Assembly (NCBI GenBank): GCA_031841125.1
Contig: CM063110.1
Span: forward strand, 15,681,626-15,745,625
DNA: 64,000 nt
Reading direction: 5' to 3'
DNA from: Acanthococcus lagerstroemiae
Taxonomy: Eukaryota > Arthropoda > Insecta > Hemiptera > Eriococcidae
Positions 3,575 to 51,324 of this stretch are shown here, in pieces. Under the pieces are notes generated by a model that saw only the letters and a list, made by a program, of their open reading frames with translations, did no database searches and had not been told where the DNA came from. Both the position numbers and the translations under genes were made by a program. Position 1 is the first letter of the stretch. Each line of letters opens with the position of its first letter.

Positions 3575-6500
3575 CACGTACATGAGTATGCAGATGAAAC
3601 CTCTAATGTGTCTACATTACTGAGGTTAGCAGGCTCCATCACAGAATACCTAGATACTGATACGAAAACAACTGGTAATTCTAGTAATTCAAATTTATTC
3701 GACCATTTTTTTTTTCACAATCAAATGACTTACCCTACAGATCATTCACAGGGAAGTGCTCAGTATACAATTCGTTTTTGGAGAGTGAATTTCTGTTTTT
3801 TTATTGACCTGTGAGAGACAAAGTACCTACCCATCTATTTCCTTCTCAACTTAAATATTATAAATCTTAGTTTAAGAAGTCTTCTTATGTATCATTCGTT
3901 TATTCACTTGTCTATTTATTTTACTTAGGTTCATTCATTTATTTATTTCAATTTTGATATTACCCCAGCCATGAGGCCATCTTTGAACAGGATATGAAAA
4001 CGTTGTAAAATCGGATGGTCATTATAAGACACATACGAAATATTCAACTTATTATTGTTTTATTATAGAAGGTAGACGAGTACTTATCAATCTAGTGATG
4101 TAAATGCTATAATCCAGTTTGTTTTCATTTCGTTTTATTTTTAGAATATGTTATTGATCCACTTCCTCGCCACATGCAAGCCGCGGATTTCAATACGAGT
4201 GAGTACACTTTCTTGAATATATATAAAGGGGGCTTGTTTCCACTTCATACCTAAATTTAAACGAACCTCTATTTTCTGCAAAGAAGTTATACAAATGATG
4301 CAATTTCTTTAAAGGTATCTTGAGTCGGAGAAGTAAGTTCTTTCAGAGGAGGCAAAATCGATTACCGGACATTTTTCCGAAACCATTTTCCCGAAAATAA
4401 ATATCCCGAATCAAATTTCCCGGATGACTTTTTTGCGAATCTTTCTTTCGAAAGACAATTTCTCGAATGAATTTTTCCAAAAATAAGTACCCGTCCCCTG
4501 AATGAATTTAGACATGGTGGACTACCTTAAAGTGACATATGTTACGATTGGAGAGAGATCATATGGAAGCCATCACCCCTTGCAATCCACCTTCCATTTG
4601 GAACAGTACGAAGCCACAAAACAACAACGCTAGCAGAGGCTGGCATAGTAGCTTCGGTCTGCTCCTAGGGAAACATCACCTCGATATGCACATTCCGTTA
4701 AAAAGTTCAGAAGAAGCAGGCGGCAACCGAGGAAAGCATCGCAGAACTTAGTCTCGGTAAGAAAGTAAGCATTCGGAAAAGTGGCTGATCAGGGAATTGG
4801 CTTCGGGAAAATAGGCGAGAACCAGCCAAAATATGTAAGGAAGGTTGAGATACGATTTTAATGGTATGAAGGAGCGGTATCATCTGACAACTTTCTACAC
4901 ATACTCGCCATAGAAACACAATTAATATCGACGACTACATCGACAAAGTGCTCGACAATTTTATTTCAAACTTAAAATGAAAATTGTTGGACGTATAAGA
5001 ACATCCCTAAAGATATTGAAAATCACAGTAATTAAAGCTGTTTGATGGTTTGCCGTAGTATAATCAAGAACAACTTTATCGAGTCGATGAGGTGATACAG
5101 ATGTTGGGTCAATTTTGAAAGCTCCATTATACTCGACTGGCGATATCAACATGACTCAGACTATCAACTCGACATTGTGAGATCGGCTATTTACTCGATT
5201 GCCATATGCTGCCAATTGAAACAAAAATAATTTTGCATACTTAAAATTTGAACATAAAAACATAGAAATAATTGTATTCACAGATGAAATGTAAACTGAC
5301 AAATTAATCAAATGAGACTACATCCCGGCAAAAGACTCGATATATTCACCAACAAATGACTCGATTTTCCTGTTTACAAAGAGCTCGACTGTTGAAAGTC
5401 GTGCAAAAAGTCGATTCAACTGGCGACGTGAAAACTGATATAGCTTTTTGTATCAGTCAGGTCAGTGTGAATGTAGAGTTGTTGGCAACCTCATTGATAG
5501 CACAAAATTTGTAGTCGCCATATGTTATCGACTATGTAGATGTGATTGTCGAGCTACTGACGACTTGATTATGTCGCCCCCCTGTGTCGACAGTGGTGAT
5601 ATAATTATCGACCTCGACTTTAGTACAGAATTAGCATCTACATAACCGTCAACTTTTATACCTACATCAGGTGACTGGGAACTCAAAATGGTTTCGAATT
5701 TCATACATTGCCATTATGTCACTGTGTGGCCGAGTGGTTAACGTGTCGCTTCGCAATCCTTGCATCTCGGGTTCAAGTCCCATCAACGCTGGAAAGCTAT
5801 ACCCTCCCTCATATCCCAGTAAACACAGCGATTGCAGTATCAATCAATATTGAAAGATAGCACGCCCTGTAACCCCGCCAGTCAGAACGAACAAAGCATT
5901 ACAATCGCACGGCGTGTTACCACCAGATCAGAAGGATTTGGTACTGTGCGTGTACAGGTTGTGGCCAGCTAACTCAAAGTATCCTAGCGAACACAGCGAC
6001 TACAGTATCAATCGAGGTGGAAAGATAACGTGTCTTGTAACCCCGCCAGTTCGGACGAACAAGGCATTACAATCACCGGGCGTGTTACCATCAGATCTGA
6101 AAGATTGAGACTGTCGAGTGCACGTCGTGGACAGCTTCCTCAACGTTGTGAAAACACATGGCTAGTAAGCGAACTGCGGTTACACAATCTTTGGCATAGA
6201 GAAGGAAAACTCTAACGCAACAAACCGTGGGGAAAGCAACGGCAAACTACCTTGACTTACCCTGCCCAGGAAAGTTGCGCATCAAAAACCGCGACCGCCA
6301 ACATCCGACAACGGATACAGGCACCTGATTGATTGATATCGCCATTAACCTCATTTTTTGACTCTAAATTATAATATGTAGAATACACAAGTAGTGAGTA
6401 CTTGTCAATCTAGGGATAATCCAGTTTGTTTTCATTTTCATTTTTAGAATATGTTGATCCAGTTCCTCGTCCCGTGCAAGTCCCGGATATCAATACAAGT

Positions 6501-9500
6501 GAGTACACCTGCATACATTAATGGTGCGTGTTTCCATTTCATACTTAAATTTTAAGAAACCTTTATTTTCTGCTAAAACGTTTCATAAACGATGCAACCC
6601 CAAAAAATGTATCTTAAATCAAAAACGTAAGTTCTCTAACAGAGCCAAGATATTTAAAGAAAGTTAAAACTGAAATGATATGATTTTAATGATTTCCCCT
6701 GCATTGATACTTGGAAATTTTGAGTTGAGTCAGTTGGAAAAATTTAAGTCAGAAGTTTTTTCTTAGTTCCTATGATACTTGGGAATTCTGAGTTATTGAG
6801 TCGGTTGGAATTTTCACAATTCACCCCCTCCCCCCGCCTGCCCTCGGAAAAACTCGTCGGTACGTCCCGGCTTTTAATGGCATGGATTTTTTCAAAATGA
6901 GGTCGAACTGAAACATGAAATATGGTGTTTTTGGAGGAATACTACTCATACGTGGGTCATTCTTCAAAAATGTTGATAATTTGGCCCCAAGCAGTTATCT
7001 TAAAAGTCATTAATGATACTTTTTTTTTTTTTTTTTCCGTTGATAGACATGTCTGAATTCTACTTTTTCAAGCATTCACAAGAAAATTGATCCACTTTTA
7101 ATGGGTCAAAATTGGATTAAATATGCTAAAATGTCCGTCGGCATGGCTGTCCTAACAATTTTTTTAAATTATTATTTTCTAAATGTCTATAAGCTATTAT
7201 ATTAGAACAAACTGGCAAAATAATACTACTTTAGATAAATGAATGAATTAGTTGGTAACGTTGAAATTGCGTCTTCACAGATGAGATCAGTGTTGCCAAC
7301 CTTGAAAGTTGTCCCTCAATTTTTTGTCTTTCAGCATGGATCTTTCTCAACCAATTACCAAAACAGAATTTCCAGATATTTTTTGTTACAGTTAATAGTC
7401 AAACTGTGCGTTGTTGTCATAAGAATTCGGTCCAGCTATCAAATCCCCGTTTTTTCGTACTAGCTCTAATAGATTTGCGGATTTTCGTCTAAAATTATGA
7501 ATTAATAAAATAAAAAAAGTATCTTTCGGCATGGTTCTTCCTGCCATGGTCATACACATGTATCACCAAAAATAAAGTCATCAACTGAAGTGGTTAGTAT
7601 GTCTTTACTGATTATTCACGAAGTCGTTTGTTTTTGAAACTACAACAGCACAGCAGAATACATTTCGTTTGCTATTGTCTTTCGGCGTGGAATTTTTCGT
7701 TTGCCTTTCGGCATAGCATTCATCATTTTAATATTACCATGCCGAAACACAGAATCCCCTCACTGTCGGCTCAATCTTACCAATATGTTATACAGAACGC
7801 CTCTTAATGACTCCCATAAAAAAATTCAAATATCTCCTACTTTCCTTCGTGAAAAAAAAAACCCTGAAATATCAACATTTTTGAAGAATGACCCATGTGC
7901 CACAAACGCGATCATTAAGTATTAAGTATTGCAAAATAATTTCATCATGACATGAGATTTTGATTATTAATTCATCTACGTTATTATCCTATGTGTAAAT
8001 AAGTATAATTATGTAGGCATACTCCAGTGGATATGTTAGTATTGCTGTTTTCATTATGTATAGGTACAATCCAAGCACCATTAGTTGACAACAATATCAA
8101 TATAAAGGAACCCATTTGTAAAGGGCCGCTAAAAAGTTGCCAAAAAATGAAACCTTCCGTATACATGGATATAATAGAACAACCTCAATCCGTAATAAGA
8201 TTTCGATACAAGTCCGAGGGCCGTTTTCCCGGAGGTTCGGGTTTGTTTGGTGCGAGCAGTAAACCGAAAAAAGAAACATGGCCAACTATTCGGGTAAGTG
8301 ACATTTTCTAGTTAATTTGACCCAGATACTCGCCACCGGTCATACAAATTAAAACGAGCAGCTTCCGAGTTTCAAATTTGTTAAAAATAGTTCTAGATTC
8401 GATTCGATTTGAAATCGATATTTCACACGTATTTATTCGCAGGAAATTTATCGACAGTTTATCGTTTAGAAATTATAAGTATAACTAACCGGTTTTATTG
8501 CAGTTTGAATATAGTTAGGAAACAGTTTGGATAACTTGAAGAGCATTCATCGAGTAGATTAACGTAATAAAAGAAATAGTTATTGAACAACTGTACTGTA
8601 TATGCAGATGCCCCATCATGTACAGGGAAATATTCGAGCTGTTGTAGACATTGGTTTTGAACAATTTTCTTCAAAAATACATAGTCGGAATATATACCGA
8701 ATATCATAACCATACATGATTTATTCTGCTCTAATAACGATCTATAAATTGCATATGTGACCTGGAATCATGAAATGTGCCTCTGGTGTCAAAAAATCAT
8801 TTTTCATTTTCTAGACAATTCTTATAGAAAAAGTCACGCTCTTTTGAACGAAACAAATTGCAGCTTCCTATCTTCATTAGTTTTTCCACAAAGTGCATTT
8901 AAAAATTATATCAAACGTTGAAAAACATCCAGAGAACAAGAATTTGAAACACAGCTGTCATAGCAACGCGTAAACGCACCACCACATATGTACACGCTAT
9001 AAACATCTATACGCACCACTACCACCATCCCATCTTTACATTCGTTTATCTCAAAAATCTGTTTTCGCACAAGAGACACATTTCATGATTCCAGGTCACA
9101 TATTTTAAATCAAAAATACATCGATAGTAAATCAAAATAGTATCATGGTTTATGTAGAGCATATAGGAAATCATAGGAATGTATTTAAACAGTTATAGTG
9201 ACTATTCCCAAATGATTTCCTCCCAACATTCACAGTTCAAGTAGAGGTAGAAGATAGTAATTTTAGTTGATTAAACTGCTGTCCTAATAATGATCGATAA
9301 ATAGCAAAGTTTTAATTGAAAATAAAAATAAAATCAAAAACATAATCGCAATATACATACACAGTAAAATTCTTGGAACTGTTATAGGGACTACTTTCAA
9401 AAGATTATCCGCCAACATTCATACTCAGTTCAAATATAGGTAGAAGATAGTAATTTTACTCGACTCGATTACTGTTCAGCGATTAATTAGTCGCAAACTT

Positions 9501-12500
9501 TTAATCGAAAATTGATAGACTCATAACCGAGACTATAAGGTAAACTACCCATTATGGGCCTACTTTTTCCCATATGCGATTAGAGGGGGCGGGGGTGTCA
9601 AAAATTCATTTTTGTTTCTTGGAATACTTACTTTGATGTAAGTATCTAGTACTACTTGTGACAGTTACTTTTCAGTTTTGAGCATTTTTGATGAATTTTC
9701 TCTCAAAATTTCTCAAAACCCAAGATTGAGTGCTGCTCCCAATTATGGGCATTTTCTGATTCTCCAACAATTCGCTATAAAATATCCTCGCAATGACACT
9801 GAAGGCCTTCTAAGTTGTTCACTAGAAAATTCCAGGTGAAATTTTCTCGATTTGAACAACTTTTAAAAATACTAATCATGGGTCGACCTATAATTGGTAA
9901 CGACCCACAATTGGTACAAAATTTTTTGACATACCCACAAGTGGTAAGTATCAAAAATCAAATGAAAAATAATGTAGTTTACTTAAGATTAAATCGATCA
10001 TTTCTCTAAAATAAAATTTTACTTATTTGACTTATGATCTCAGACGAGATGAACGATTTTACTTGTCTGTAGATTTTCCCCCCAATTTGTACGACCAGGA
10101 TAGCATAAGAATAGTGAATTTTGTAGGCGGAACATTTTGGCATATTATGCCCGGAGAATCTGGGTTCGACGAATGAGGTACATTCGATGTTCTCAAAGGA
10201 AACACGTTCTGCCTTTAGCTTGAAAATAGGTCGTCACTAAAAGAGTGGACATGCAGGTCATAATTTGTTCTTTTGTCAGTCTGTAGAAGTCTTTCGTTCC
10301 AAGACATATTCAAAGACTAACTCCAGAGGAACTTATGACCAGAACTTTCGCACCCTGCGTCATTAATTTTCCAGCAGTACCAGATAACGAAGACATTTTC
10401 AAAAATGTAATACTCGTAAATAATCTTGTGTTTAGATTGTCGGGCACACAGGACCCTTTGCAGTTGTTGTATCATGCGTAACCAAAGATAAACCATACTA
10501 CGCTCATCCATATAAATTGGTCAGCAAAGAAGAAGACACAAAGGGCGGCGAACCGAATGGGTATTATTTTGTTGTAGTTGAGAATGAAAGCAGAGAAGTT
10601 ACATTTCCTCGTATGGGAATACAGTGTGTTCTTAAAAAAGAGATTACAACCTCACTTAAAGCACGTGACCGATTTGATCCGTTTAAAAGTAATTATCAGA
10701 ATTTGCAGCTTTTGATTACCTTTTTACAGGGTGTTTCAGGGTGAATGACTTTCCAGGAAAGGAGACGTTTGACAGCATACAGATATGTTTGCCTAAGCTT
10801 ACTCTTCAATAGAAGAAGTTATTCTCTTTTTCAATTGAAAACTTTTACCTCACATTCGAAATTGTTAGAATGGTGAAACATTGAAGACAACTACCCGCAC
10901 AACACTCGACATTGATAAAACGATCGACAGGAGTATCTTCGTGGGTCAAATGGTAAAAACTGCCAAATAGATAAAAACTTAGGATTAAACGCGGCCTGTA
11001 CAGCTGATGTAGAAAGTCATCACAAACATAACAAACCATGATAACCATCTAAGTGAAACACTTTAACACAAATGTAACCGTACGCCATTCTGAATCCTAC
11101 CACGCCCGTGGATGCCGAATCCTACTACACGGATCGCACCGCGTAGTCAATTCGGCATCCACGGGCGCAGTTGGATTCAAAATCGTGTATGGCTACATTC
11201 GAGTTAACGTGCTTTAGTCTAAGTGGGTTAGTCATTCAATATGGCGGCCATTTAAAGACGGTGGATTGTATGTTTCTTTCATGGATTATAACTCAGTCTA
11301 TATGGGTCCAATCTGAACAATTCTTTTCCCTAATTCGCAGCTAACTAAGAGAGCTTTGATTCAAATATTTAAATAAGTACACTTATGCTCGTATCTACTC
11401 ATATTAACTCGGAGAATGCGTAACTATTCAAACCAGCCGATTTCGTGTCCAATGTTTGCGGTCGGCGCACCTAAAATACTCGGCAAATTGAAAAGTAGTA
11501 CGATTGAAAATTGTGCGGAATTTTTCTACCTTCCAGTTGACGTTTGATTTGTCTCAATTGCATAAAGAAGAAAAGGTATCGAGAGCAAAACAGGATGGGA
11601 AGTACCTAAGACATTTCAAGTGCTGTATAGATACAGAAAATAATTATGAGGGGGGGGGGGCGAATGAGCAATGTTATAGACAAAACATAATAGCTCTAGT
11701 GTTCATGTTGGAGTGTGAGTGAACTTGGTAAATTCTGTACGTAGGGTGTGCCAATTCACAATGACAAACAGAAACAAAGGACAGAAACAACAATGTATAT
11801 AATTTATTTTTATACCTGGATAATAAATAATATACCTATGTAAAGTAATATCCGGTGCAATCAAAACTTAACTGAGTACTGAGGCCTTTTTGTTCTCATT
11901 GTCTTACATGGATTGTATCAAATGACCAGACATCAACAGAAATGTGAATCCTTTTACTTCATCAACGCCTTGTTAAACCTTTTCTCTTAAACTGTCGACT
12001 ATAAACAGAAAATTTATACTAAATTGTAGAAAACTGTAAGTACAAACAGTTTCACAACCCCTTCTCAAATAAGGCTAAGCAAATATATCTGCATTCTGTC
12101 AAAATAAGTTGTCTACTCATCAAGCTGAAGGAGGACTGTTCACAGTGAAACACTGAACATCTCATTTTGGGTTTTCTCTTGCAGAGGGATTCAAGCACCA
12201 ATTCACACCAGAAGAGCTCATTGCGGTTCGATTGTGCTTTCAAGCATATGATATAAATTATCCTTATAGCCGTCTTTGTGAACCTGTAGTTAGTGTGCCA
12301 ATATACAACGCAGGTAAGCGATGATAAAAGACACGATATAACGTAATTTATCCTCAATATTGTAACCGTGTATAAGCCTGCGTAGCTACCTGGAACCAGT
12401 ATCTGATGCTAATTCCACTTTCGTCCACAGAGAAAAGGTCGCCTCTAGTCATACACAAAATGGCTCCTTCGAGCGCTCCAGCCAGTAAACCCGGAGAGGG

Positions 12501-13555
12501 CGTTATATTATGCGACAAGATTAGCAAAAGTAATTGCGTTTTTGGCCCATCTCACCGCCGCTTTTCATCGTATGTTGAATCATATCCGTTAACAAACTTA
12601 TTTCTGTTTTACAGATGACATCGAAGTAGTATTCTATGAATTCAACGAAAATAATACAGAGGTATGGAAACGTATAGGTACATTCAAACCTGATACAGAT
12701 GTGCACAAGAATGTCGCAATCTGTTTCAAGATACCACGGTACACAAACACCATTGAGGTAAATCACCTATGGCTGTTTTATAATTACAAAATGTAAGCAT
12801 TAGAAAAGGTGACTAAGAAGGTGGCTGACAATGAAACCCTCCAGGAATACGCGAACATAACTGTGAAGACATATTATGATCCCCTCGTAACTCATTTCCA
12901 GCCTCTGTCATCGGGCTGTTAACATGTGTATGTACATCTGGTAGTTTGTCACTTTCAAGTCCAGCATGAGTATTTTTCATTATTATTACAAATATGCGCA
13001 ATACGCGACTGTGTTTCTAACGCAACGTACTTCCATTTTTTTTTTTTCATACAGAAAGGGCGCGTTGCTAAAGTTCTTGTTGAACTGAGAAGACCATCGG
13101 ATGGAGAAAGGAGTGATTCCATTATATTCACCTACACAACAGCAGATTCAGGTAAAGTGGTTTTTAGGACGAATAATATGTACTATCTATTCGTTCAGCG
13201 GCTGACAGAGTCTCACAGGTCGTAGCTAACCGCTTGGTGTGTGCCAGGGCATGAGCCATAAGGGTACAACGAAAAAATTTTTGGCTCGCTCCGCTCGCAT
13301 GTGCTAGCCAAAACGGACGCGCTTACCAGCCAGGGCAAAGCCTCGGCTGTCCTGGCGTTAGCTACGGGCCTGGTATCTTACATAAGTACACTACGAGTAG
13401 ATGACCATAACACATTATCTGCATTTCCAGATCTGTCGATGTCCAGCACATCCGGAGATGCAGCAAGTCCTGATCCTGTCAGTGTGGAGAACATGCTCTC
13501 ATCCAGTGATCTTATGAAATTATCCGACGGTGTCAGCAACATGTCAATTGGATAA
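3575..13555 (+). CDS. Rel-A: Rel/NF-kB (Dorsal-like) short protein, 10 exons, 5' end unresolved
   Basis: Exons by sequence and phase: 3575-3674, 4145-4198, 6448-6498, 8064-8293, 10436-10688, 12185-12313, 12431-12529, 12615-12757, 13055-13151, 13431-13555. All have GT/AG borders and the reading frame is open for 426 codons to a TAA. Exon 4 carries the recognition loop RFRYKSEGR and exon 5 the Dorsal-type [19 protein letters not shown]. Exon 6 has VRLCFQ and PVVSVPIYN, which close the DNA-binding half. Exons 7-9 form the IPT/dimerisation half ([39 protein letters not shown]). Exon 10 is a Ser/Asp-rich tail ending SNMSIG. Family role: a dimeric transcription factor of Toll/immune and patterning pathways that binds kappaB sites. 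Odd points: Ser replaces the recognition-loop Cys, no Lys/Arg-rich nuclear signal follows the IPT domain, and there is no activation domain or ankyrin repeats. The PKA-type RRPSD site is kept. No ATG lies in exon 1, so an upstream start exon is missing; internal Met codons in exon 4 are an alternative. An ATTAAA at 13582 could be the polyadenylation signal. Confidence 0.85.
4030..4345 (+). repeat. Rel-A exon-2 unit, tandemly duplicated at 6375-6650
   Basis: The exon [18 protein letters not shown] (4145-4198) and its flanking introns are repeated as exon 3, [17 protein letters not shown] (6448-6498). Both exons are phase 1-1, so the duplication keeps frame. Confidence 0.75.
4365..4500. repeat. 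Degenerate short tandem repeat (about 17 bases, ttcccgaa-type)
   Basis: Repeated tttcccgaaa/aatttcccgga motifs in Rel-A intron 2, immediately after the first copy of the duplicated exon. Confidence 0.5.
4925..5640. repeat. TCGA-dense tract in Rel-A intron 2
   Basis: More than a dozen TCGAC/ACTCGA/GTCGA words are scattered over about 700 bases, well above the surrounding AT-rich sequence. No period, ORF or known family was recognised. Confidence 0.4.
5717..6340 (+). mobile_element. tRNA-derived SINE with internally duplicated body
   Basis: The head has a tRNA Ser/Leu-like A box (tggccgagtgg) and B box (gggttcaagtccc). The body motif 'gcgaacacagcgactacagt' and its relatives occur twice (from 5817 and from 5982), so the body is partly duplicated. 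The tail is tgattgattgat. The flanks share gccatta (5710-5716, 6341-6347). A second member of the family is at 51350-51704. Confidence 0.7.
6690..6872. mobile_element. Fragment of the MITE family seen at 53650-53918
   Basis: Shares 'cttgggaattctgagtt'-type repeats and the terminal tcggtacgtccc with the element at 53650-53918; only one end is clear. Confidence 0.4.
6953..7895. mobile_element. DNA transposon relic with 26-base terminal inverted repeat
   Basis: tgggtcattcttcaaaaatg... at 6953 is inverted at the right end (…catttttgaagaatgaccca, 7876-7895). The interior has several 'tttcggcatgg' repeats and no transposase ORF. Lies in Rel-A intron 3. Confidence 0.55.
8756..9100. mobile_element. 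Tc1/mariner-type MITE
   Basis: tgtgacctggaatcatgaaa at the left is exactly inverted at the right end; TA is present on both sides (8754-8755 and 9101-9102). 345 bases, no ORF, in Rel-A intron 4. Confidence 0.7.
10727..12158. mobile_element. Long-TIR element in Rel-A intron 5
   Basis: The left end cagggtgtttcagggtga and about 90 further bases ('agatatgtttgcctaagctta') are inverted at the right end ('aggctaagcaaatatatctg', 'cagtgaaacac'). The same element occupies the homologous intron of Rel-C (48867-50156), and its right end is found in Rel-B (38280-38360). No transposase is recognised. The right end sits about 30 bases from the acceptor of the next exon. Confidence 0.55.
11073..11206. mobile_element. 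Foldback (palindromic) MITE
   Basis: Arms containing gcccgtggatgccgaatcc and ttcggcatccacgggc can form a long hairpin. A second copy is at 33990-34110. Confidence 0.6.
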
Positions 13556-13899
13556 CAGAAGGACAAACTGAGCATATTTTCATTAAAAATACGACTAAAC
13601 GAAGTCAATAATTAGGATTGCACCAAGACTTCAATTCCATCTACCTTCAGAACTGATCTGCACCGATTGGCGCAACTGCTCAGCCCTTAACAATTACTTG
13701 GGGGAAAAAATGCATCGACAAAAGGCTACAATACGCAAAAGTAAACGTGTCCTGGCTACAGCACGTAGGGGAAAGCTGGGCAAGAGGACCCATTAGCTTT
13801 AGAGATAATAACTTTCCTTCTAGTGACAGAATGAGAAATGTAATTGCACTAACTTTATTATTTTATTACAGCCTTGAATTAAGTAGGTACATCCCTACT

Positions 13900-14105: not shown

Positions 14106-14149
14106 AAGTTCACACGGGCTGATAATCTCTCGTTTGTAATCGTTATTGT

Positions 14150-14828: not shown

Positions 14829-14829
14829 T

Positions 14830-17700: not shown

Positions 17701-17701
17701 A

Positions 17702-17960
17702 TTAAAGTACACAATTCTTATATTTTTTTGTCTTTATACTGTTCAACTTCAGTACGGCGTCCGCAGTTGAGCGGCCAGTTCTGAATTCGTACTGACTGCT
17801 CGAAATCGTCTTCCGCCTCCGAAAGTGCTCTTCCAGCCTATCCACGATGGTACGCTCAAACACCATGTCGACGGTGTCGAGCAGGCAGATAGGCCGGTAT
17901 GAGGACGGCTGGCCATCTGGCTTCCCTGGCTTCTTGATCAGTGCCAGCCGCACCGTCTTC
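17702..17960 (-). mobile_element. R1-like LINE reverse transcriptase fragment
   Basis: The minus strand reads IKKPGKPDGQPSSYRPICLL and FRTGRSTADAVLKL, RT fingers/palm motifs of R1/Jockey-type elements. Truncated on both sides. Confidence 0.75.
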
Positions 17961-20598: not shown

Positions 20599-20606
20599 AT
20601 AATGAC

Positions 20607-22435: not shown

Positions 22436-22439
22436 TTAA

Positions 22440-23230: not shown

Positions 23231-23579
23231 AAATTGAAATTTTGAGAAAATTTCAAAATTGGGGTATCAATATACATTAAATGTTGGAAAAAAGTTATTT
23301 TCGTTCAAAAATGCTCATTTTTAAAAACAAAACTTTTCTCGAAGGAATTTTTGCGTTTATTTCGGATATGTACTTTAATTTCACCTCATTTTCTTAGTTC
23401 TCACATAGATAGCCAACAGCGTCGTACAAACTACAATTTTAGACATTTTCTCCCCGAGTCATTGAACATGGTACCTGTTTTTCAAATTTTTGAGGTAACT
23501 GAGTTCAATGGTGACAGTTTTCTGAATACGACCCTCTCAAGTCTACCAAACAAATTTTGACAAAATAATGCCCATCACA

Positions 23580-37900: not shown

Positions 37901-40900
37901 GGTTCGGAAAATAAATAGTAAATATTTTCATGTTTTGCATGTCAATTCCTAAATAAAATTTCCCTTCCTAACCCAATATTTCTTTATAGAAAACAATTTC
38001 CTCGTGCGCACTTCATTTAAACACCTGTTGACCTCACTCTTCCACCATTTAAGTGGATACTTCAATACTTAAAGATACTGAATTTTGGTTCAGCGATTTT
38101 TTTCTCTAAATCGGGGTAAACATGAAATTCATTCACACCACGCTGAACCCATTCCAATATTTTCCTTCAGTGGTTGCTGAAACTGTTCTCTATACCAGAA
38201 AGTTTCTGTTTAATTGTAGAAAGAGAAAACAATCAATTCAAGAAGTAAAATTGAGAATATGAACCATACTGCAACTAGGGCACTACATCTGCATTTTGTC
38301 GGCAAAGGTTGTCTGCTCGTCCGGCTGAAGGAGGACCATTCATTGTAAAACATCCAGTACATCTCATTTTGGGTTTTTACTTACAGTTAAATTAGACCAC
38401 AACTTCGAAAAGAACCTTCGTTTATGTTTTCAAGCTCGTGATCCACAGAATGGTTATCGCAGTGTCGGTAAACCTGTACTTAGTGAGCCAATACATAATA
38501 AGAAGAGTAAGTGATGATACAATATAGAATATGAATACAACGATATATCCTGTCGGCGTGGTTACCCTATACTTGTATCTAATGCAAACTCCATTTAATA
38601 GACGCAACACATCCTGGAAATCTGAACATACATAGGCTGATTCCGTCGAGAGCTTCTGCCTCTAAGTCCGAAACTGTCATCATAATACCCAAGTCAAGAT
38701 CTACAGGTAATGCCGTCAGCGGCCTTTCTCATTTCTGCCTTTTTCGTGCGTTGAATTTTATTATTTAGCTTATCTATTTCTACATTACAGATGCTATAGA
38801 TGAAGTCCGGTTTTATGAAGTCAACAGACATCTTGAAGAAGTATGGAGAGGTAAAGCAATGTTTACACCTGCTGATGATGTGCACAAGACAGTGGCAATT
38901 TGTATCAAGACTCCACTATACACACGCCCTATTGAAGTAATATTATATGTCGCTGTTCTAGAATTATATCATCTAGATATTCTGAAAGAGGGCTAAGAAA
39001 ATGACATACAAAAGAACTCTACTGGGATACGAGGCCATAAGTGTGAAAATATACTGTAGTTCTCCCTTCCATCCCTCATTCCCAAACTTCAAGCTGTCAA
39101 CATATATAGCTAACAATTTATCAATTTATTAGTTCAAATCCACTCGAAGTATTTTTAATTATACGTTAAGGTGGCCCTTAAAAATCAAATTTCGAGAATT
39201 TCAGCTCCCACCCCTAGAATTGTTACTTCATATGGAAAAATGATCCCCTAAAAATTTCTACTCGATTAATTTATTTTAAAGCGGCTCGAATGAGGGATTT
39301 CACGTTACAGTGCCGGGTGAAGAACGATGCTTTGCACGGTAAGGCCCGTTTCACACGTATCCGACATGCTGGTCCGACGTCGGACCGGCATAAAATTGAT
39401 ACACAGAAGGAAATAAGAGCTTTCACACGAAGTCGGCTGTCGGCCCGACGTCAGTTTGATATCGAGGAATGTCGGCTCTTGCCTCGACACGTATCCGACA
39501 AAATGACGGCTAAATGGCGCGGACCGACGTGTCGGATACGTGTGAAAGCGTTGCTATTTGCTGTCGGACCGACGTGTCGGATACGTGTGAAACGGGCCTA
39601 AGCATACGCTTGTAAAAGTACAGTTGGCGTTTCAAATTTTTTCACTGCAGATAGTGACTTTTCTAGTTTTTTACTCTAAAAATACCTACTCAAAATAATT
39701 CCCAACTCAAAAAAAAAAAAATTGAAAGACTTGGTGATTAATGAATCGCAGAAAACCTTTTAGAAAAATACATAATGTTCTTTTGCATGTGAGATGTCCT
39801 TTCTCTTGCCCTCATCACATTCATCAGTCATCAAGAAATTATGAATAGGAGTAATATATCCTGGGTGTATCTCCTATTAAAAAGAAGATTGGGCTTCTTA
39901 GGTAAATACTTGGCTAGATAATTTTGAAATTAGATAAACATTGTCTTAGTATATCCAATTTAATTTTTCATTAAAATGATATCCGTATTAATAGTTTATT
40001 ATTTTAATGCTTTCATAGTAAATTGGGAGGGAGGTCATTTGAAGGTCATTTATTTTAGAAATTCGATTTGTTTTAGAAAGTATAAACAAATAACATCAAA
40101 CATTTATTAGATGTTTTAAATTCATACATATTAGGAATAAAAACAAACATTAAACATTCGTAACATTTTATTATAGGTATTTCAATCATATTAAACTAAA
40201 AGTAGATTTCTCAGAATTTGGGTACTGTATTCTGTATTCCGTCATACCTTGTATTAAAAATTGTTTTTGTTCTTCATTGTTGCTTATTTTTAAATTTTTG
40301 ACGGTGAGGGACAATTCACAATTTCGTTTGCTCCCTTCGCTCGTAATTCACAGTTTAAACAATAAATAAACACCCAACTAACAAATAACTAACATAATTA
40401 AATCAGTGAACTGGAATACACCGAGTAGAACAGAAGAAAAAAATAATAATATTCATTTTTTAAGTCAGAAATGCAATAACTGAATTTTAGTCAACAAAAT
40501 TATACGACGTATCTCAGGGACCGTTGATGCCCGAGTTTTTTCGCGGGTTGCAACGGACATGCAAGAATAGTCGGCGCGTTACCTTCATTTTAATGAAATC
40601 TCTCATTCGGGCCATCTTAAACGTGATCAATTGAGCTGAAATTTTTAAGGGAATGTTTTTTCATATGAAGGAACAATTCTATGGGGTGGGAGAGCGAAAT
40701 ATCAAAAAAAAATTTCGTCATCGATAACAGAGGGCCACCCTATTATACATACATGCAATACATCACGATTATAAGCGCAAATAGCCGACCTTAAGTGGGA
40801 GGTCAAACGGGGGGCTAACACGTATCAGAGTTATGCTGAAAATTCTTTCATTCGCACGAGTATAATTTTCCAGCATTCTGGAAAAGAGCTTTCAGTTTAT

Positions 40901-41355
40901 TTGGAGAGCACCAGCACTCTCCCCAAACCCCCTACGTGCGCCTATGATCACGAATTTTCTAATGGAACGCGTTTCCATCTGTTCCATACAGGAAGGGCAT
41001 GTCGCTGTAGTTCGTGTTGTGCTCGTAAGCAAATCGGGTGAAAAGGAAATTTCTGGACCTCCCACTAAATTCATCTATACAAGAGCCGTTTCGGGTAAAG
41101 TATTTTCTCGTTTTCAAAACTTTCGTAAGTTTGAAATTAGATATCTATAATAGAGGTGTGTCTATAATTATCAAGAGATAGCCATTACTCACACACGTAC
41201 TCGATGACCATAAAATATTATTTACATTTTCAGATCCAAACGTTGAGGAAAGACCGAATTATTCGGTAAGTATCCCTTCAGCCAGTCAACTTCCTGACCC
41301 AGACAAAAAGACAACTTATTTTTCCCGCATTGTAAATACTTCTCGAGATTTTTGA
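31920..41355 (+). CDS. Rel-B: Rel/NF-kB short protein, 7 exons, complete
   Basis: Exons: 31920-32138, 36962-37223, 38387-38506, 38602-38706, 38791-38936, 40992-41094, 41234-41355, giving 358 aa with a consistent frame. Exon 1 starts at an ATG (MDPSTMTEVG) and contains RFRYPSENRNGG at about residue 44. Exon 2 has [17 protein letters not shown], exon 3 LRLCFQ and KPVLSEPIHNKK, exon 4 the start of the IPT domain. Exon 5 has VRFYEV, VWRGKAMF and DVHKTVAICIKTPLY; exon 6 ends KFIYTRAVSG. This is the most diverged copy. The PKA-type RRPSD stretch is replaced by SKSGEKEI, the recognition loop has Ser and loses the second Arg/Gly pattern, and no nuclear signal follows the IPT domain. The last exon reads about 40 residues to a TGA, but a good donor (gtaagt, 41267) lies inside it, so a further exon is possible. 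Intron 1 (4.8 kb) holds MITEs and degenerate tandem arrays. The start choice is supported by the lack of a Rel-A-type splice acceptor at the same point. Confidence 0.82.
33186..33943. mobile_element. TA-flanked MITE in Rel-B intron 1
   Basis: Left end ccgtaatctggggtaacttc; the right end is its imperfect inverse (…cgaagttatatcccagattacgg). TA at 33184-33185 and 33944-33945. An internal copy of gggtaacttcggac is at 33390. No ORF. Confidence 0.75.
33990..34110. mobile_element. Foldback MITE, second copy
   Basis: Contains gcccgtggatgccgaatcc and the inverted ttcgacatcgacgggcgcgg; same family as 11073-11206, more diverged. Confidence 0.55.
34360..34475 (-). mobile_element. LINE RT fragment
   Basis: The minus strand reads ALRELKNGKAPGVDEIPADL, the RT fingers motif; very short remnant. 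Confidence 0.65.
34930..35760. repeat. Degenerate tandem array in Rel-B intron 1
   Basis: Recurrent gaatggaacgaagttctcat-type words (34952, 35128, 35434, 35579, 35695) alternate with 'aaaggagacaactttttctc'-type words. Irregular spacing and heavy erosion. No ORF. Confidence 0.5.
35790..36290. repeat. Second degenerate array in Rel-B intron 1
   Basis: Repeats of 'actcagcgactcaggaaa' and 'ttcattcaattttcaaggat' types with a period near 130 bases. Related 'cagcgacccaaaa' words also occur near 57165. Confidence 0.4.
38280..38360. mobile_element. Right end of the long-TIR intron element in Rel-B
   Basis: Matches 12085-12158 and 50085-50156; ends about 30 bases before the acceptor of exon 3. The left end is not clearly preserved, although 37680-37745 resembles the subterminal part in Rel-C. 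Confidence 0.5.
39343..39598. mobile_element. PIF/Harbinger-like MITE
   Basis: Inverted ends ggcccgtttcacacgtatcc / ggatacgtgtgaaacgggcc; TAA on both sides (39340-39342 and 39599-39601). An internal second copy of the right end precedes it. Located in Rel-B intron 5. Confidence 0.75.
39620..40100. repeat. Dispersed repeat related to the hAT element at 20607
   Basis: Shares long stretches with 20839-21110 ('aatgaatc', 'tttagaaaaata', 'tttctcttgcc', 'tcctgggtg'), and 'tcatttatttt' stretches with 22140-22200. Its own ends are not clear. Lies in Rel-B intron 5. Confidence 0.5.
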
Positions 41356-43730: not shown

Positions 43731-43739
43731 AGTAGTTAC

Positions 43740-44770
43740 TTGTCAAGTCAAGTCAGCTTAGCCAATGACAGGATATTCGTAGTCAAAGACTAAAGAGACC
43801 TCTATTACGACAGTCTGTACTATTTGTTCCCTTATATTTCAAATTTATATGTTAATGGGCTCCTTCCTGATCCCCTCTTAGTGATGGGTGATAGGACAAA
43901 ATTCAGTTCAAGATTCCTCTTAATAGTCCTCTATGATCCGAGTTAAGGCAATAGAATCATTTATTATTTTTTAATAAATTTATGAATACAGCTTCGTTAG
44001 ATATTACTGTTGCTCACTACATCGGAACCAGACGGAGTAATGAGCTGCTCCTCGATGCAAAAACTATAACCACATACATTACACATAAATATTGTCTATT
44101 ATGAGCTATTCTGCTGTTCACCCTTACCCGTACTCCTTTATCCGTCCATTCTATTTGTTACTGAGCTGAGGCGCAGCTAAAAGTCCCCCTCACCGCGACA
44201 AGGTAGCAGAAGGCAATTTTTAATTTAGAATTTAGAGTCGTTGGTCCAAGAAAGGTGGATACCATATTTCTAACGCCCCTGGATCCGCCAAAAGGGGCAA
44301 ATGCTAAAGCTAAAATTTCTATTTCGTTATAACCACATCGGAAATGGATCGAAAATTTGACAGGATATTCATAATTAGCGACCCACGAGACCTCTATTTC
44401 GACAGTCTGTTTTATTTGTTCTCATTTATTTCGAATTTCCATGTTGATGGGATCATTCTTGGTCCCCCCACTGAAGACGGGTGGAAGGAGACGACTTGAT
44501 TCAAGATTTCTCTTAGTCCTTATTGATCCGAGTTAAAGCACAACATTATGAGCTTACGAAATGAATGGGTATGATTTGAAGGTTAAGGCTATGTGTACAG
44601 TGATACGATTGAGATGAAAGAAATTTTGAGAAGACTGGACGTGTTAGTAGAACTTTCGAGTTACTATTGCTCACGACATCGGAACCGGACCTCTCAAAGT
44701 TACGATGGTGGAAATATAACCAAATACATATTACACATAATTATCTTCTGTATGACTCTGCTAAACACCA
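43740..44770. repeat. Upstream segment of Rel-C, itself duplicated
   Basis: Two related blocks, about 43740-44110 and 44340-44770, resemble each other ('gacaggatattc', 'gacctctatt', 'gatccgagtta', 'ctcac.acatcggaacc') and both match 450-1130 upstream of Rel-A. No clear ORF. Confidence 0.6.
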
Positions 44771-46300: not shown

Positions 46301-49300
46301 CAAGGAAATAATGATTATGCAGATGAAGCCGTTGAGAGGCCTTCATTACTTGGAATAGCAACGATCAGCGAGAACAATGGTACGAAAACATCTAGAACTT
46401 CTAGTATTTCGCATTTATTCGACCAGTAACATTTTTTATTTTCTCATTTTTTTCTGTAACAATCAAGTAAATTAAATGGCTTGGCTTACCCTGTGTCACA
46501 CACTGGGAGTACTTACCGCATTATTCGTTTTTGGAGAGTAGATTTCTGTTATTCTACTGATTTATGAGGAATCTAGTATCTACCCATCTATTTCTGTCTC
46601 AAATTATAATTCTCAGTTTAAAAAGTCTTATTAAGATACTTATTCCCTCCTCTTTCGGATGGCGTTATCTGTTTTCCTCTGTCGGCCTTCGTTCGTCCAT
46701 TACAGACGAAAACTTGAATAACACACCTTTTTTCTGTTTTGCTCGCACAATGAAACTCTATCATATCATATTAAAAACTTTCCCTATTGCACATTCGAAC
46801 GAAAAATGATTTGCGTGAGGTCAAGTACTACTCTACATATTATACTCGTAATTCTGACGCAGGCCCATTCGGAGCGTTTCCGGGATAGGGGGTGTATTAG
46901 TTTTCTGAAAAAGTCCCACTTGGTCGACAAAATTCTTTATAAAATTTCTAACAAAATAAAACCTCACGGAGTTCTCTAGCTTTCTTTGTCTCGGAGATAT
47001 GCCACTTTGAATTTGTAATTTCTCGTTTTTTTATTTTTAATTGAATTTTTCTCAACATCAGTTTTTTTGAAATTTCAACTTTAAGCGGGCGTATCGCGGC
47101 GAATTTTGGAGTTAGAGAGCTCCGCAAGGTCACATTTTGTCAGAAATTTCATTTCATATACACCGGTACTCATAACTCCATGTCGACAAATTGGGACCTT
47201 ATTTCTTGCTATGCCACATAAATATAAGAAACGTAAGAAATATTCAATTTATTATTGTTTAATTATATAGGAATATAGGAGTGCTTATCAATATCGAGAT
47301 GTAAATACTACAATAATTCAACTTCTTTTCATTTCGCTTTATTTTTAGAAAATAATGATCCGGTACGAATTGTTATACTAAAGAACCCTCCATCCAAAAT
47401 CAGATTTCGATATAAATCCGAGCGCAGTGATGGCGAAAGATTCAGCGCTGCTATTCGGGTAAGTTATATTTTCTAGTTATAACTCCATCCAGATAACCCC
47501 GGTCATACAAACTGATTCGGTGAGTATTCGATTTTTAAATTTTTTAGTAAAGTTGTTCTGGATTCAATTTGATTTGAGATCGATATTCCCCTCATTTATT
47601 TACAAGCGCAACTTATCGACTGTTTATCCTTTATCGTGTAGCTCTTTTTCTAATTTACTCTCTACCCGAGTCCTGGAATCCACCCTTTCGAGCATTACTT
47701 CAGAGACGTCGGGGACGCTGTTGGCTGTCTTAGCCCACTTCCCGAAAAACCGGCCTAGGTCGAAAATTCTGCCGAGTTGCTACGTAGGCTCGAACCCGGG
47801 ACCTCCGGATTCTGAGACCAACGCGCTATCCACTCGGCCAACCAGACCTCTCCTTTATCGTGTAGCAATTATTATACCTAATTATAATTAATCTATTTTA
47901 TTGTAAATTTCCCTCCGGCCACTGATGTGATACTTGAAGTGGCAGTTCCCGGGGCCGGGGGTGCGGTGTCTTAGGGGCTACTTCGGCATGTGTGGTACTA
48001 TTATACTTTTAATTTATTTATTTTTTCGATTTACATACCTCCGATTTAATTGTTCATTTACTAAATTTGTAATTTCAATACATTTAACGTATTTCAATCC
48101 ATAAGTAAACGAGTTTCCTGAATTCTGCAGGTATAATTTCAGAACGAATAATAATCGGTAAATTGTTAAAAGGAAGATTCGATAAATAGTCGATTAACTG
48201 TGTTTCTTTGACGTACGATCTAAGACGATAAATGAACTCATTTTCCTGTCAAATGATTTGTACGACCAGGATGCCCGGAAAATCTGGGTTCGACATTTCC
48301 ACAAGAGACACGTTCTGCCTTCAGCTTGAAAATAGGTCCTCATCACGAATAGAGTGGACTTGCAGGTTGTAATTCGTTCTTTTGTCAGCCTGTAGAAGTG
48401 TTTTGATCCGGAGCACATTCAAAGACGACTCCAGAGCGACTTATGACCAGAACTTTCGCATTCTGTGTCATTAGTTTCCAAGCTGTACTATAGGTAACGA
48501 AGCCTTATTCAAATGTTATAAATAATCTCGGCGTGTTTAGGTGGTTGGACATAGCGGACCCTTCCTCATTGTTGTGTCGTGCGTGACTAAAAACAAACCA
48601 TACTCGGCTCATCCGTATAAATTGGTCTACTCGGCTCATCCGTATAAATTGGTCAGCAAAGATGACTGCGGCCCAAATCAGGAAGAACACGGGTGCTGTA
48701 TTGTTAAGGTTAACGAAAGTGGAGAGGTCATGTTTCCTCGTATGGGAATACAGCGTGTTCTTAAAACAGAAATACAAAGCTCGCTTACAGCGCGTAAAAA
48801 TTACTATCCGTTCAAAGGTAATTATCAATATTGGCAGCATTTAATTATCTTTTAGCATTCAAAATGCAGGATGTTTCAAGGTGGGCTACCTGCCTTCAAC
48901 TAGGAAAGGAGACAGTACAGTCTGAAAACGTACATGTTTGCCTAGTCTTACTTTTCAATAAACAAAATTATACGATAAGCATAGAAGTTATTTGGGTACT
49001 TTTCCGATCAAATGTTTAAATGGTGAAACTTAACGTCGCACATAAAATATAACCATTGAAAAATCCTTCGATCATCAACAGTTAACAATCAGATATCTAC
49101 AAAGGTATCAAGAAAATTTAGTCTGAGATGAAATAGTCAATGAAAATGATTTTATTGAAAAGCTTCAGTGGTTACCTTACCTCCTCTCGCCCTCATCCAA
49201 AAGCAATATAAGGGACATATAGCAAAGGCAAATTTTTTACTATAAAGAGGAGGGAGACCAAACCCCGGAAAAATACTAACTGACAACTGAATTCTGTCCC

Positions 49301-51324
49301 TTTGTAGTTTAAATCAACAAGTAATAGTAAAAAACGGATTTTGACCTAATTTAAACTTCTTTTTTTTAATATTTTATAATTCATTTTATATCTAAGTAAC
49401 GAATCATACACGTGACTATCAATTCATATCCAGTACAATCAAGACTTTACTGCGTATTAAAGCCTCTATTCTTATGGTCTGATATGGATTGCATAAAATG
49501 AACAGACAATGTCAACAGAAATGTCGATCCTTTTGTCAATTAATGTCATCCATAATTTAGATAGATTTTCAATAATATTCAACTATGAACAAATTAGTCT
49601 AAGTTTTCTCAACACATTCTGACTCACCGTACACCCCACAGTGTCTATAGTTACGTTGATACTTCTTATCAATGTGTGCTGATTACAAAAGTTTCTTGTA
49701 ACATTGACACTTGTTAGTGTTCTCATTGTAAACTGAGCTGCTCATTATAAACAAAAGACAATTCACTCGATCACCAGTAAACATTTATTCATCCTTTGTC
49801 TGCTAAGAATACGTACTATACATTGATAGTAAGCACAGTATCAACATTTATAGACAGGTCCAGCAAAATAACGAGTAAAAATGTCCTGAATTTCGGTAGT
49901 GGGCATATTAGTTGAAATTACTATTTACTTTATCAGCAGCTCGTTGAACCTTTCCCCCTTTTTTTCCTGCGAACACCGTCTACTACCAACAGAAAGTTTA
50001 TTGCAAATTGTAGGAAATCGAAGAAGTAACATTGAAAGTGTGAACTGTCTCGCAACCCCCTTCTTAATTAAGGCTACGCTAACATATCTGCACTTCATCA
50101 AGATAAGTTGTATACTCACCGAGCAAAAGAAAAACCATTCACTGTGAAACACCCTGTACACCTAATTTTGTGATTTTTCTTACAGGGAAACCTCACAACG
50201 AATTCAAACCAAAAGAGCTGGCTGTCGTTAGACTGTGTTTTCAAGTGTACGATGGAATGTATCCTCATCGCCTTCTCTGTAAACCTGTAGTTAGTGAACC
50301 AGTATATAACTCAGGTAAGCGGTAATAAGAAACACTATGTGTATAACATAACATATCCTCAATCATGACCGGTGTATAAGCTTGGGCAGCTACCTAAAAC
50401 TAGTATCTAATGCCAACTCCACAGCACAATATCCAGTCATAAAAATGATGGTTCCTGCAAGCGCTCCAGCTAACGCTTGCGAAGATGCCGTTATATTATG
50501 CGACAATATTGATAAAAGTAATGGCGTATTTGAATTTCCTCACTCCTGTTTCTCTATCGTATGTTGAATCATATCATTTGACAGACCTATTTCTGCTTTG
50601 CAGATGACATCGACGTACTATTCTATGGAAAAGACAACGGAAAGGTATGGAGACGTAAAGCAGAATTTAAGCGTGATAGTGATGTGTACAGGAATGCCGC
50701 AATTTGTTTCAAGATACCAAGATACCCAACCTCCCTTGATGTAAGTATACACCTGTGACTGTTTTAAAATTATAAACCGTAAAAGGATCAGGGAAGGTGG
50801 TTTACAATCAAACCCTATATAGGGATGCATGAAAATAACTATGAAGACTATCATTTCCAGCTTCTGTCGGATTGTCAACATATTATACATCTGCTAGTTT
50901 GTCGCTTCCAAGTTCAACTTAAGGACTATTCTTTCATTATGCATGCAATATGTAACGACATGTTTTCATTTATTCTACACAGGAAGGAACCGTTGCTGAA
51001 GTGACTGTTCAGCTAAGACAACTATCGAATAGAGCAAAGAGTGCCCCCATTAAATTTACCTACACAAGTATTCCAGGTGAAGCAGTTTTCTATCTTCAAC
51101 ATTTTCGCGTGTCAGATATGCGTATAAATACTTACTATCTATTCACCAGTCAACTGGCAGTGTCTCATATACATAATCAATATCATAACATATTATCTGA
51201 ATTTCCAGGTTCATCCAGTCAAGAGCCTGCTCCGTATATTTTGGAAGAGCAGTGGTCAACCGGTAGCCGAGATGAGTGGTACCACAATTTGTTTCAGAAA
51301 TCGTTTCCATATCAAGAAGAATAA
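46301..51324 (+). CDS. Rel-C: Rel/NF-kB short protein, 8 exons, 5' end unresolved
   Basis: Exons: 46301-46379, 47349-47458, 48541-48817, 50186-50314, 50425-50517, 50604-50740, 50983-51076, 51209-51324. The frame is open for 344 codons to a TAA. Exon 2 has RFRYKSERSDGERF. Exon 3 has VVSCVTKNKPYSAHPYKLV with a tandem repeat of the last nine residues. Exon 4 has VVRLCFQVYDG and PVVSEPVYN. Exons 5-7 form the IPT half ([32 protein letters not shown]). Exon 8 is a 38-residue acidic/aromatic tail ending PYQEE. The RRPSD dimer/PKA site of the family is changed to RQLSN. Compared with Rel-A, the two short linker exons and the exon-4 N-terminal extension are collapsed into one exon. Intron 7 (132 bases) has no stop and is a multiple of three, so a form retaining it would also be open. 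A SINE begins about 25 bases after the stop codon. Exon 1 lacks an ATG; the first exon is unresolved. Confidence 0.83.
47643..47850 (-). mobile_element. tRNA-derived SINE with 16-base target duplication
   Basis: The minus strand begins with ggttggccgagtggatagcg (A box) and has a B box ggttcgagcc. The duplication tcctttatcgtgtagc is at 47627-47642 and 47851-47866. Inserted in Rel-C intron 2. Different family from the SINE at 5717. Confidence 0.85.
48601..48654 (+). repeat. Perfect 27-base tandem duplication inside Rel-C exon 3
   Basis: Bases 48601-48627 and 48628-48654 are identical and in frame, doubling YSAHPYKLV in the DNA-binding half. Confidence 0.95.
48867..50156. mobile_element. Long-TIR element in Rel-C intron 3
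   Basis: Left end caggatgtttcaaggtgg and 'acatgtttgcctagtctta' are inverted at the right end ('aaggctacgctaacatatct', 'cactgtgaaacaccctg'). Interior blocks align with the copy in Rel-A (11830-11960 against 49430-49550). Confidence 0.55.

Follow-up and report, generated by a model that had tools for sequence, protein, structure and literature searches.

The question that this locus raises is what several Rel genes lying side by side in the genome of Acanthococcus lagerstroemiae represent, how they arose and what they might do beside Dorsal. Insects ordinarily have a small number of Rel factors, and these evolve slowly. Within the window, i.e. the whole stretch of 64,000 nucleotides that was analysed, Rel-A (3575-13555), Rel-B (31920-41355) and Rel-C (46301-51324) are found on the same strand, as a preliminary description had it, and position 51324, with which the described cluster ended, is the final base of the Rel-C stop codon. 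The count of three given there holds for the window but not for the array, since genome searches reveal at least five Rel genes over 99 kb, with two further copies (Rel-1 and Rel-2) upstream, outside the window, and the gene order Rel1-Rel2-A-B-C. We are highly confident that these genes, five or more in number, form a tandem array derived from Dorsal, with the origin and anatomy set out below. By its COX1 the animal stands near the soft scales, with 75% identity to Aclerda and Ceroplastes and 74% to Didesmococcus among the best 120 of at least 7993 candidates. Five genes rather than three, a two-gene block duplication and a Cys-to-Ser change in all five recognition loops are what the present analysis adds to the earlier account.

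Gene models and protein domains

All exons of Rel-A, Rel-B and Rel-C are open, their introns are bounded by GT and AG (Table 1), and the splice phases are those of the insect's own Dorsal; the agreement of phases from the recognition-loop exon onward, first noted for these three genes, extends to the two other array genes and to this Dorsal. The small 5' exons of Rel-A at 3575, 4145 and 6448 were placed solely from the reading frame and the splice sites. The models of Rel-A and Rel-C contain no start codon and need an upstream exon, and the first RHD exon of Rel-B has no AG where Rel-2 has its acceptor.

Table 1. Positions of the array features in the window, with the basis of each
Feature	Positions	Strand	Basis or remark
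Rel-A upstream flank	193..755	.	about 193-392 dispersed repeat; for the remainder, matches upstream of Rel-C only
Rel-A putative 5' coding exon	3575..3674	+	GT/AG, phase 1 end; in block matching Rel-C exon 46301-46379
Rel-A putative small 5' exon, resembles next one	4145..4198	+	GT/AG and phase; tentative
Rel-A putative small 5' exon	6448..6498	+	GT/AG and phase; tentative
Rel-A RHD exon 1, recognition loop RFRYKSEGR (Ser for Cys)	8064..8293	+	PF00554 E 9.3e-08, piece 8009-8293
Rel-A RHD exon 2	10436..10688	+	PF00554 E 7.9e-15, piece 10436-10741
Rel-A RHD exon 3	12185..12313	+	spliced model, domain match
Rel-A RHD exon 4, dimerisation domain begins	12431..12529	+	spliced model, domain match
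Rel-A RHD exon 5, dimerisation domain	12615..12757	+	spliced model, domain match
Rel-A RHD exon 6, dimerisation domain ends	13055..13151	+	spliced model; alone PF16179 only E 0.014
Rel-A tail exon, 41 residues and stop, without polybasic NLS	13431..13555	+	acceptor and frame
Rel-B first RHD exon, ATG at 31920	31920..32138	+	PF00554 E 2.8e-05, under cut-off
Rel-B RHD exon 2	36962..37223	+	PF00554 E 1.5e-12, piece 36962-37234
Rel-B RHD exon 3	38387..38506	+	splice model
Rel-B RHD exon 4	38602..38706	+	splice model
Rel-B RHD exon 5	38791..38936	+	PF16179 E 2e-06, 28.2 bits vs cut-off 28.3
Rel-B RHD exon 6	40992..41094	+	splice model
Rel-B tail exon, 40 residues and stop	41234..41355	+	splice model; alternative donor possible near 41264
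Rel-C upstream flank, paralogous to 193-755	44105..44648	.	another partial copy at 43771-43960
Rel-C putative 5' coding exon	46301..46379	+	splice model; matches block at Rel-A 3575..3674
Rel-C RHD exon 1, recognition loop RFRYKSERS	47349..47458	+	spliced model, domain match
Rel-C RHD exon 2	48541..48817	+	PF00554 E 7.3e-11, piece 48541-48852
Rel-C exon 2, perfect in-frame 27-base tandem duplication (YSAHPYKLV twice)	48601..48654	+	
Rel-C RHD exon 3	50186..50314	+	splice model
Rel-C RHD exon 4	50425..50517	+	splice model
Rel-C RHD exon 5	50604..50740	+	splice model and domain search
Rel-C RHD exon 6	50983..51076	+	splice model
Rel-C tail exon, 38 residues and stop, without polybasic NLS	51209..51324	+	splice model

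Once spliced, all five array proteins exceed the cut-off for RHD_DNA_bind (profile 1-2 to 168-169, E 6.7e-23 to 1.8e-44) as well as for RHD_dimer (profile 2-14 to 100-101 of 103, E 1.8e-08 to 2.5e-21), the weakest RHD_dimer match being that of Rel-B with 34.8 bits against a cut-off of 28.3. In a profile scan of nine single-exon pieces, four passed the RHD_DNA_bind cut-off (exons 1 and 2 of Rel-A, exon 2 of Rel-B and of Rel-C; E 9.3e-08 to 7.9e-15) and a fifth, Rel-B exon 1, fell short of it (2.8e-05); two gave RHD_dimer matches below the cut-off (Rel-B exon 5, Rel-A exon 6), and no domain matched the final pieces of Rel-B and Rel-C.

In the recognition loop, the conserved Cys (C38) is replaced by Ser in each of the five genes and R33, R35, Y36 and E39 are retained throughout, positions that are given in p65 numbers and that we take to be DNA contacts. 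With these contact residues retained, the proteins may bind kB DNA as a dimer. A Cys in this place is redox-sensitive. It is present in 201 of the 213 database matches listed (script count), and one study describes Cys62 of p50 as important in DNA recognition (PMC4294364). Since the array carries Ser in all five loops instead of the RxRYxCE loop that strictly marks Dorsal and Dif, we file its members as divergent Dorsal-derived paralogs and not as Dorsal orthologs.

The tails measure 38 (Rel-C), 40 (Rel-B), 41 (Rel-A), 53 (Rel-2) and 55 (Rel-1) residues in the spliced reading, which depends on the assumed last splice and has retained-intron alternatives. In this reading no tail has three or more basic residues in a row, as expected of a polybasic NLS, and the combination of such a signal with a long activation region, another strict mark of Dorsal and Dif, is absent from the array, the model of the own Dorsal being a 392-codon frame only. 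By eye, the tails of Rel-2 and Rel-A have a short motif in common (LENIFSS...VNQMSID and VENMLSSS...VSNMSIG), not seen in those of Rel-B or Rel-C, which is a candidate for a small segment used in activation or docking.

Genome searches yielded an RHD set of one canonical Dorsal (G000:C3:55343645 onward), the five array genes and an NFAT5-like gene. No Relish was found with the RHD_DNA_bind and RHD_dimer profiles, of which the former overlooked the RHD exon that comes first in Rel-B and in Rel-C, and the latter overlooked Rel-2 and Rel-B, so that a still more divergent Rel copy could escape detection. A candidate for an additional Rel gene or Relish at C5:34469338 was rejected, as one exon there is closest to NFAT5 (E 4.9e-13; RelB 0.0047) and the adjoining piece had no match. 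Haplotype duplicates or an assembly error are ruled out by RHDs that are mutually 36-54% identical and all located on a single 70 Mb contig. The array genes are likewise neither Relish nor retrocopies, as they retain the introns and phases of Dorsal and have no ankyrin repeats downstream; instead of these repeats, which mark Relish and class I proteins, the spliced reading has stop codons 38-55 residues past exon 6.

Origin and duplication history

In an RHD-only tree rooted on p65, the five array genes form the sister group of the own Dorsal, placed within Hemiptera and next to aphids, with a support of 93/96.7 that is below the star mark of the tree program. This placement bears out the Dorsal-like type first assigned to the copies. 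A larger tree with more columns, many long rows and a midpoint root also gathers the five array rows on one branch side (98/90); the own Dorsal is not beside them there, which we read as long-branch attraction. The arrangement ((Rel2,RelB),(RelA,RelC)) is supported by 97/93 or better in both trees.

The regions of Rel-A and Rel-C, introns included, align in blocks at 66-81% identity with collinear noncoding matches, and the earlier remark that their introns are still alignable was correct. With 40 of 993 candidates scored, the upstream flanks of the two genes are 81% identical and have a repeat insertion in common, whose adjoining sequence was matched only inside the array. Taken together, the two pairs, their alternating order, the alignable introns and the shared repeat insertion point to the copying of two neighbouring genes as one block, Rel-2/Rel-A giving rise to Rel-B/Rel-C, as the last visible growth step.

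Two protein searches gave 267 significant of 1947 and 249 of 2135 candidates, and the best 120 of each comprised 213 different proteins, none of which exceeds 45% identity to Rel-A. A lineage-specific expansion, as originally supposed, is hence supported relative to the species of the protein database, which apparently include no close kin. The titles and abstract openings listed in literature searches that covered few subscription journals give no description of an array of this kind, and 'dorsal' and 'immun' are absent from the main text of the Ericerus pela genome paper (PMC6743827).

Proposed role and rates of evolution

From our point of view, Dorsal has been copied in tandem, with the copies retaining its introns and phases, and the array has grown up to the block duplication. 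The copies have kept an open, fully spanned RHD while diverging fast, and all carry Ser for Cys. Their products would be Rel proteins of small size, still capable of DNA binding and dimerisation, that act mainly as dimer partners or competitors, tuning, most likely damping, Dorsal at kB sites. A role as partner or competitor is suggested by tails that have neither a polybasic nuclear signal nor a long activation domain. We consider the chances even that the statement as a whole is right, namely a lineage-specific array of short Dorsal-derived Rel proteins that are mainly partners or competitors tuning Dorsal, and rate it slightly less probable that they damp Dorsal output at kB sites. The positions that we take to form the dimer interface show their greatest differences in Rel-B and Rel-C, and these two may no longer pair with Dorsal. 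By analogy with Dorsal, an immune and body-axis gene, the array genes may be immune factors.

A study on Manduca reports that RHD-only Relish isoforms bind Dorsal and that their co-expression suppresses AMP promoters; it also reports activation of AMP promoters by the RHDs on their own (PMC4742911). Shortness does not, then, imply inhibition. Activation by the RHDs would suit specialised activators, which we regard as an improbable alternative, though the strongest one. In it, the copies would work in a tissue- or stage-specific manner (immune, symbiont-housing or germline) and would have taken on some of the tasks that belong to Dorsal and to Relish, which is missing here. The retained DNA-contact residues, the lack of a Relish in the genome searches and the motif common to the Rel-A and Rel-2 tails are in line with this; the brevity of all tails, the lack of a polybasic run and the restriction of the motif to two of the genes speak against it.

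Fast protein evolution after duplication, proposed at the outset, is supported by pairwise dN/dS values of 0.52-0.83 (dS 0.50-0.97) among the four younger genes (Rel-A, Rel-B, Rel-C and Rel-2) and by the low identity to Rel-A among the matches listed. Such divergence could also mean that pathogen or symbiont factors binding Dorsal drive an arms race in which the copies are decoys or targets and not transcription factors. The in-frame duplication in Rel-C would fit, as would the preference for M2a over M1a (2dlnL 8.03 on 262 codons, reached in 0 of 18 parametric simulations); after removal of gap-adjacent codons, however, 2dlnL falls to a non-significant 2.78 on the 171 codons left, and positive selection is not claimed. 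Likewise, exons 3-6 of Rel2/RelB differ by 32.0% and the trimmed introns 3-4 by 20.7% (Fisher p 0.013), whereas exons 3-6 and introns 3-5 of RelA/RelC are equally diverged (p 0.53) and longer introns outside this comparison diverge at least as much as exons (K 0.45 for Rel2/RelB intron 5; 0.65 and 0.68 for RelA/RelC introns 1 and 2). A generally faster evolution of exons than of introns is rejected, as it is confined to a comparison with two short introns in a single pair and is not seen with the introns outside it. Retention of the DNA-contact residues would moreover be needless for decoys, and we deem this explanation quite unlikely.

Least probable of all are decaying duplicates under relaxed constraint, partly or wholly non-functional and most plausible for Rel-B and Rel-C with their branches longer than those of their sisters: dN/dS does reach 0.83 and the models of Rel-A and Rel-C are without a start codon, but the five models are free of stops and frameshifts, omega is 0.64 with omega = 1 rejected (2dlnL 16.0) in a test that covers the four younger genes as a set and not each gene, and copies simulated at assumed rates, Rel-1 being outside both analyses, rarely stayed open (0-0.1% of 2000 at 0.25-0.30 changes/site for the four; 2.3-2.7% of 2000 at 0.12-0.15 changes/site, Rel-B and Rel-C only). 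The pseudogene outcome with dN/dS near 1, named earlier as the contrary case, is thus disfavoured.

Returning to partners and competitors of Dorsal, the array raises the questions how NF-kB output is tuned in a sap feeder without Relish and whether a developmental transcription factor can found a fast-evolving family, and the common Cys-to-Ser change offers a concrete residue for functional work. Scale insects are known for their bacterial or fungal symbionts. One could speculate, with considerable doubt, that a diversifying and uniformly Cys-changed family of short Rel proteins has provided a circuit of one Dorsal and no Relish with graded modulators or decoys that microbes or symbionts have shaped.

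Comparison with known systems

The nearest relative of the array is the own Dorsal, its sister in the tree, with which it shares the exon phases, the full RHD and the VTKxxP stretch; its RHDs are, however, only 36-51% identical to that of Dorsal, and it differs by the Ser in the recognition loop and, in the spliced reading, by the lack of a long C-terminal part. Dif of Drosophila and the extra Dorsal-class genes of mosquitoes likewise stem from lineage-specific duplication, but these were independent events with fewer copies and with longer C-terminal regions than those of the array. Among Sternorrhyncha, Dorsal is present in Diaphorina citri and Coccidae as it is here: the consulted sections list one dorsal-like gene for D. 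citri (PMC5126049) and, in a table on Coccidae, a single E. pela scaffold that stands for both dl and Dif, and Relish as not found, as in the present genome (PMC11084805), and neither mentions an array. MsRel2A/B of Manduca resemble the array in being short Rel proteins with little beyond the RHD; they are isoforms of one Relish gene (PMC4742911), whereas the array consists of separate Dorsal-derived genes.

Extent and structure of the Rel array

Motif and open-frame scans of the window located three Rel genes on the forward strand (Rel-A, Rel-B and Rel-C). Manual exon joining gave open frames, consistent phases and GT/AG introns in each, and RHD_DNA_bind and RHD_dimer, which make up the Rel homology domain (RHD), scored above the Pfam cut-offs in every spliced protein. 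The preliminary description had proposed a three-copy tandem cluster whose limit coincides exactly with the end of Rel-C; the three copies stand, but the number does not, as genome searches (658 Mb, 438 contigs) extend the array to at least five genes. Rel-1, Rel-2, Rel-A, Rel-B and Rel-C follow in this order on a single strand over 98.7 kb, and the array is real, apparently intact and larger than first noted.

RHD_DNA_bind returned 12 matches, namely three in the canonical Dorsal of the same genome (own Dorsal, on contig C3), eight in the array (contig C5) and a weak one, judged by one exon to be NFAT5-like. The dimerisation family gave six matches in the same three places, and all 19 matches of the Rel-A protein fell in the array or own Dorsal. 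A Relish RHD was absent from the matches of these searches, which also missed some diverged array exons.

In each of the five genes a short tail exon with a stop can be reached by splicing after exon 6, and no run of three basic residues occurs in the five tails on this spliced reading; the tails would differ if the last intron were retained. Two small putative 5' exons of Rel-A are mutually similar, as if by exon duplication. By eye, fragments resembling the reverse transcriptase or integrase of transposable elements occur both between the Rel genes and next to them. A stop-free frame in the window had no match in Pfam (E 0.1) or among PDB sequences (E 1); by eye, its product is presumably of the endonuclease/exonuclease/phosphatase type. 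Own Dorsal runs into an open frame matching a Homalodisca Dorsal isoform; beyond it lies an ankyrin-like stretch (by eye) that may or may not belong to the same gene.

Locations of the features discussed (G000, this genome; C3, C5 and C11, contigs; tail lengths on the spliced reading)
Feature	Location	Strand	Size or tail
Rel-1	C5:15634201-15641744, tail exon at 15641907	+	tail 55 residues
Rel-2	C5:15662939-15670264, tail at 15670408	+	tail 53 residues
Flank upstream of Rel-A	window 193-755
Rel-A	window 3575-13555	+	tail 41 residues
Small putative 5' exons of Rel-A	window 4145-4198, 6448-6498	+
Rel-B	window 31920-41355	+	tail 40 residues
Rel-C	window 46301-51324	+	tail 38 residues
Transposable-element-like fragments (by eye)	window 15071-17998	-
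	window 23569-24787	+
	window 27103-29058	+
	window 51714-51956	-
Stop-free frame	window 60522-61412	+	297 codons
NFAT5-like locus	C5:34469338 (34.47 Mb)
Frame continuing own Dorsal	G000:C3:55355929 on		392 codons
Ankyrin-like stretch	C3:55362691
Oxidase-like frame	G000:C11:404492-408817 (L027)		749 codons

Origin and duplication history

In the phylogeny suggested by the preliminary description, run on the RHD only (31 rows, rooted on vertebrate p65; supports below the tool's star standard), the array's five proteins form one group (93/92), to which own Dorsal is sister (93/96.7), and all of these adjoin four aphids and relatives (87/78) inside Hemiptera (84/85). A larger tree (50 rows, more columns and many long branches, of which the tool warned) likewise has the five on one side of a branch (98/90), own Dorsal being placed not beside them but among other insects. 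The topology ((Rel2,RelB),(RelA,RelC)) is recovered in both trees, and the alternation of these pairs along the chromosome is explained by one duplication of a Rel-2/Rel-A block. Collinear matches join the regions of Rel-2 and Rel-B, and likewise link Rel-C to Rel-A together with the flank upstream of Rel-A. At 81%, this flank matches the region upstream of Rel-C. A dispersed repeat, present in many copies in the genome, makes up the first 200 bases of the flank, and the remainder matches only upstream of Rel-C, twice, one match being partial at 73% (40 of 993 candidates scored). Rel-1 is the array gene nearest own Dorsal (51% identity over 298 codons).

As far as the database shows, the array appears lineage-specific. 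Mitochondrial COX1 lies on a 23 kb contig (GC 12.6% in the stretch examined), and its nearest relatives among the matches listed (75% for both Aclerda takahashii and Ceroplastes japonicus, 74% for Didesmococcus, 72% for Coccus) point to a scale insect near Coccidae. Coccidae are described as having Dorsal, Relish not being found (PMC11084805), and the psyllid Diaphorina citri as having one dorsal-like gene (PMC5126049). By eye, P0192, a database protein of Cinara cedri, apparently carries two divergent RHD DNA-binding halves and would be another unusual aphid Rel gene.

The 96 scored COX1 matches lie on many contigs. Read with the bacterial code, most of them contain internal stops, and many resemble mitochondrial DNA copied into the nuclear genome. 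Contigs C1 to C9 were those observed to have coordinates reaching tens of Mb. C11 (1.5 Mb) has a bacterial look, with 40.6% GC in the stretch examined and a frame resembling, by eye, a fused cbb3-type oxidase, and would be a symbiont or contaminant.

Evolutionary rate and selection

The fast protein evolution after duplication claimed at the outset is borne out by dN/dS ratios of 0.52-0.83 in the six pairs among Rel-2, Rel-A, Rel-B and Rel-C (Nei-Gojobori; dS 0.50-0.97, dN 0.33-0.52), comparisons with Rel-1 and Dorsal being near or beyond saturation. A one-ratio codon model gave an omega of 0.64 and rejected omega = 1 (2dlnL 16.0), and a two-class model put 60% of sites at 1 and 40% at 0.17. 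Adding a third site class gave a gain in fit of 8.03 with all 262 codons, reached by none of 18 simulated sets, but of only 2.78 with the 171 codons away from gaps. Exons 3-6 are more diverged than trimmed introns 3-4 in Rel2/RelB (p 0.013), and no difference was found between exons 3-6 and introns 3-5 in RelA/RelC (p 0.53); introns 1, 2 and Rel2/RelB intron 5, left out for their length, show divergence equal to exons or higher where aligned. Together, the codon models and the exon-intron comparison show fast evolution with constraint retained, and only a hint of positive selection. Four genes were simulated as decaying at assumed rates, and copies free of stops were an unlikely outcome for them. 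In the codon model as in both trees, Rel-B and Rel-C, which form block II, have longer branches than their sisters.

Protein residues and proposed function

Residues were compared by alignment in p65 numbering. The base-contacting R33, R35, Y36 and E39 are conserved in all five array proteins, as is K123; K122 and R187 vary, and R41 is conserved in four, in Rel-C under one gap placement only. C38, a Cys in own Dorsal, is Ser in all five. The recognition-loop Cys is present in 201 of the 213 database matches listed (script count), and P0153, P0199, P0205 and P0207, among the 12 others, have Ser instead, so that this change arose elsewhere too. Dimer-interface positions (D217, H245 and V248 among them) are most altered in Rel-B, where K replaces D217, and in Rel-C, which has Y for H245 and A for V248.

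Gene structure, domains, origin and rate are the observed steps of a proposed function in which the array proteins would be produced, enter the nucleus, bind kB sites and pair with Dorsal, and thereby might lower its output. That they act instead as activators is an alternative kept plausible by Manduca RHDs, which reportedly activate promoters by themselves (PMC4742911). For pairing with Dorsal and lowered output, the same study offers a precedent, as Manduca RHD-only proteins are described there as pairing with Dorsal and jointly suppressing promoters (PMC4742911).
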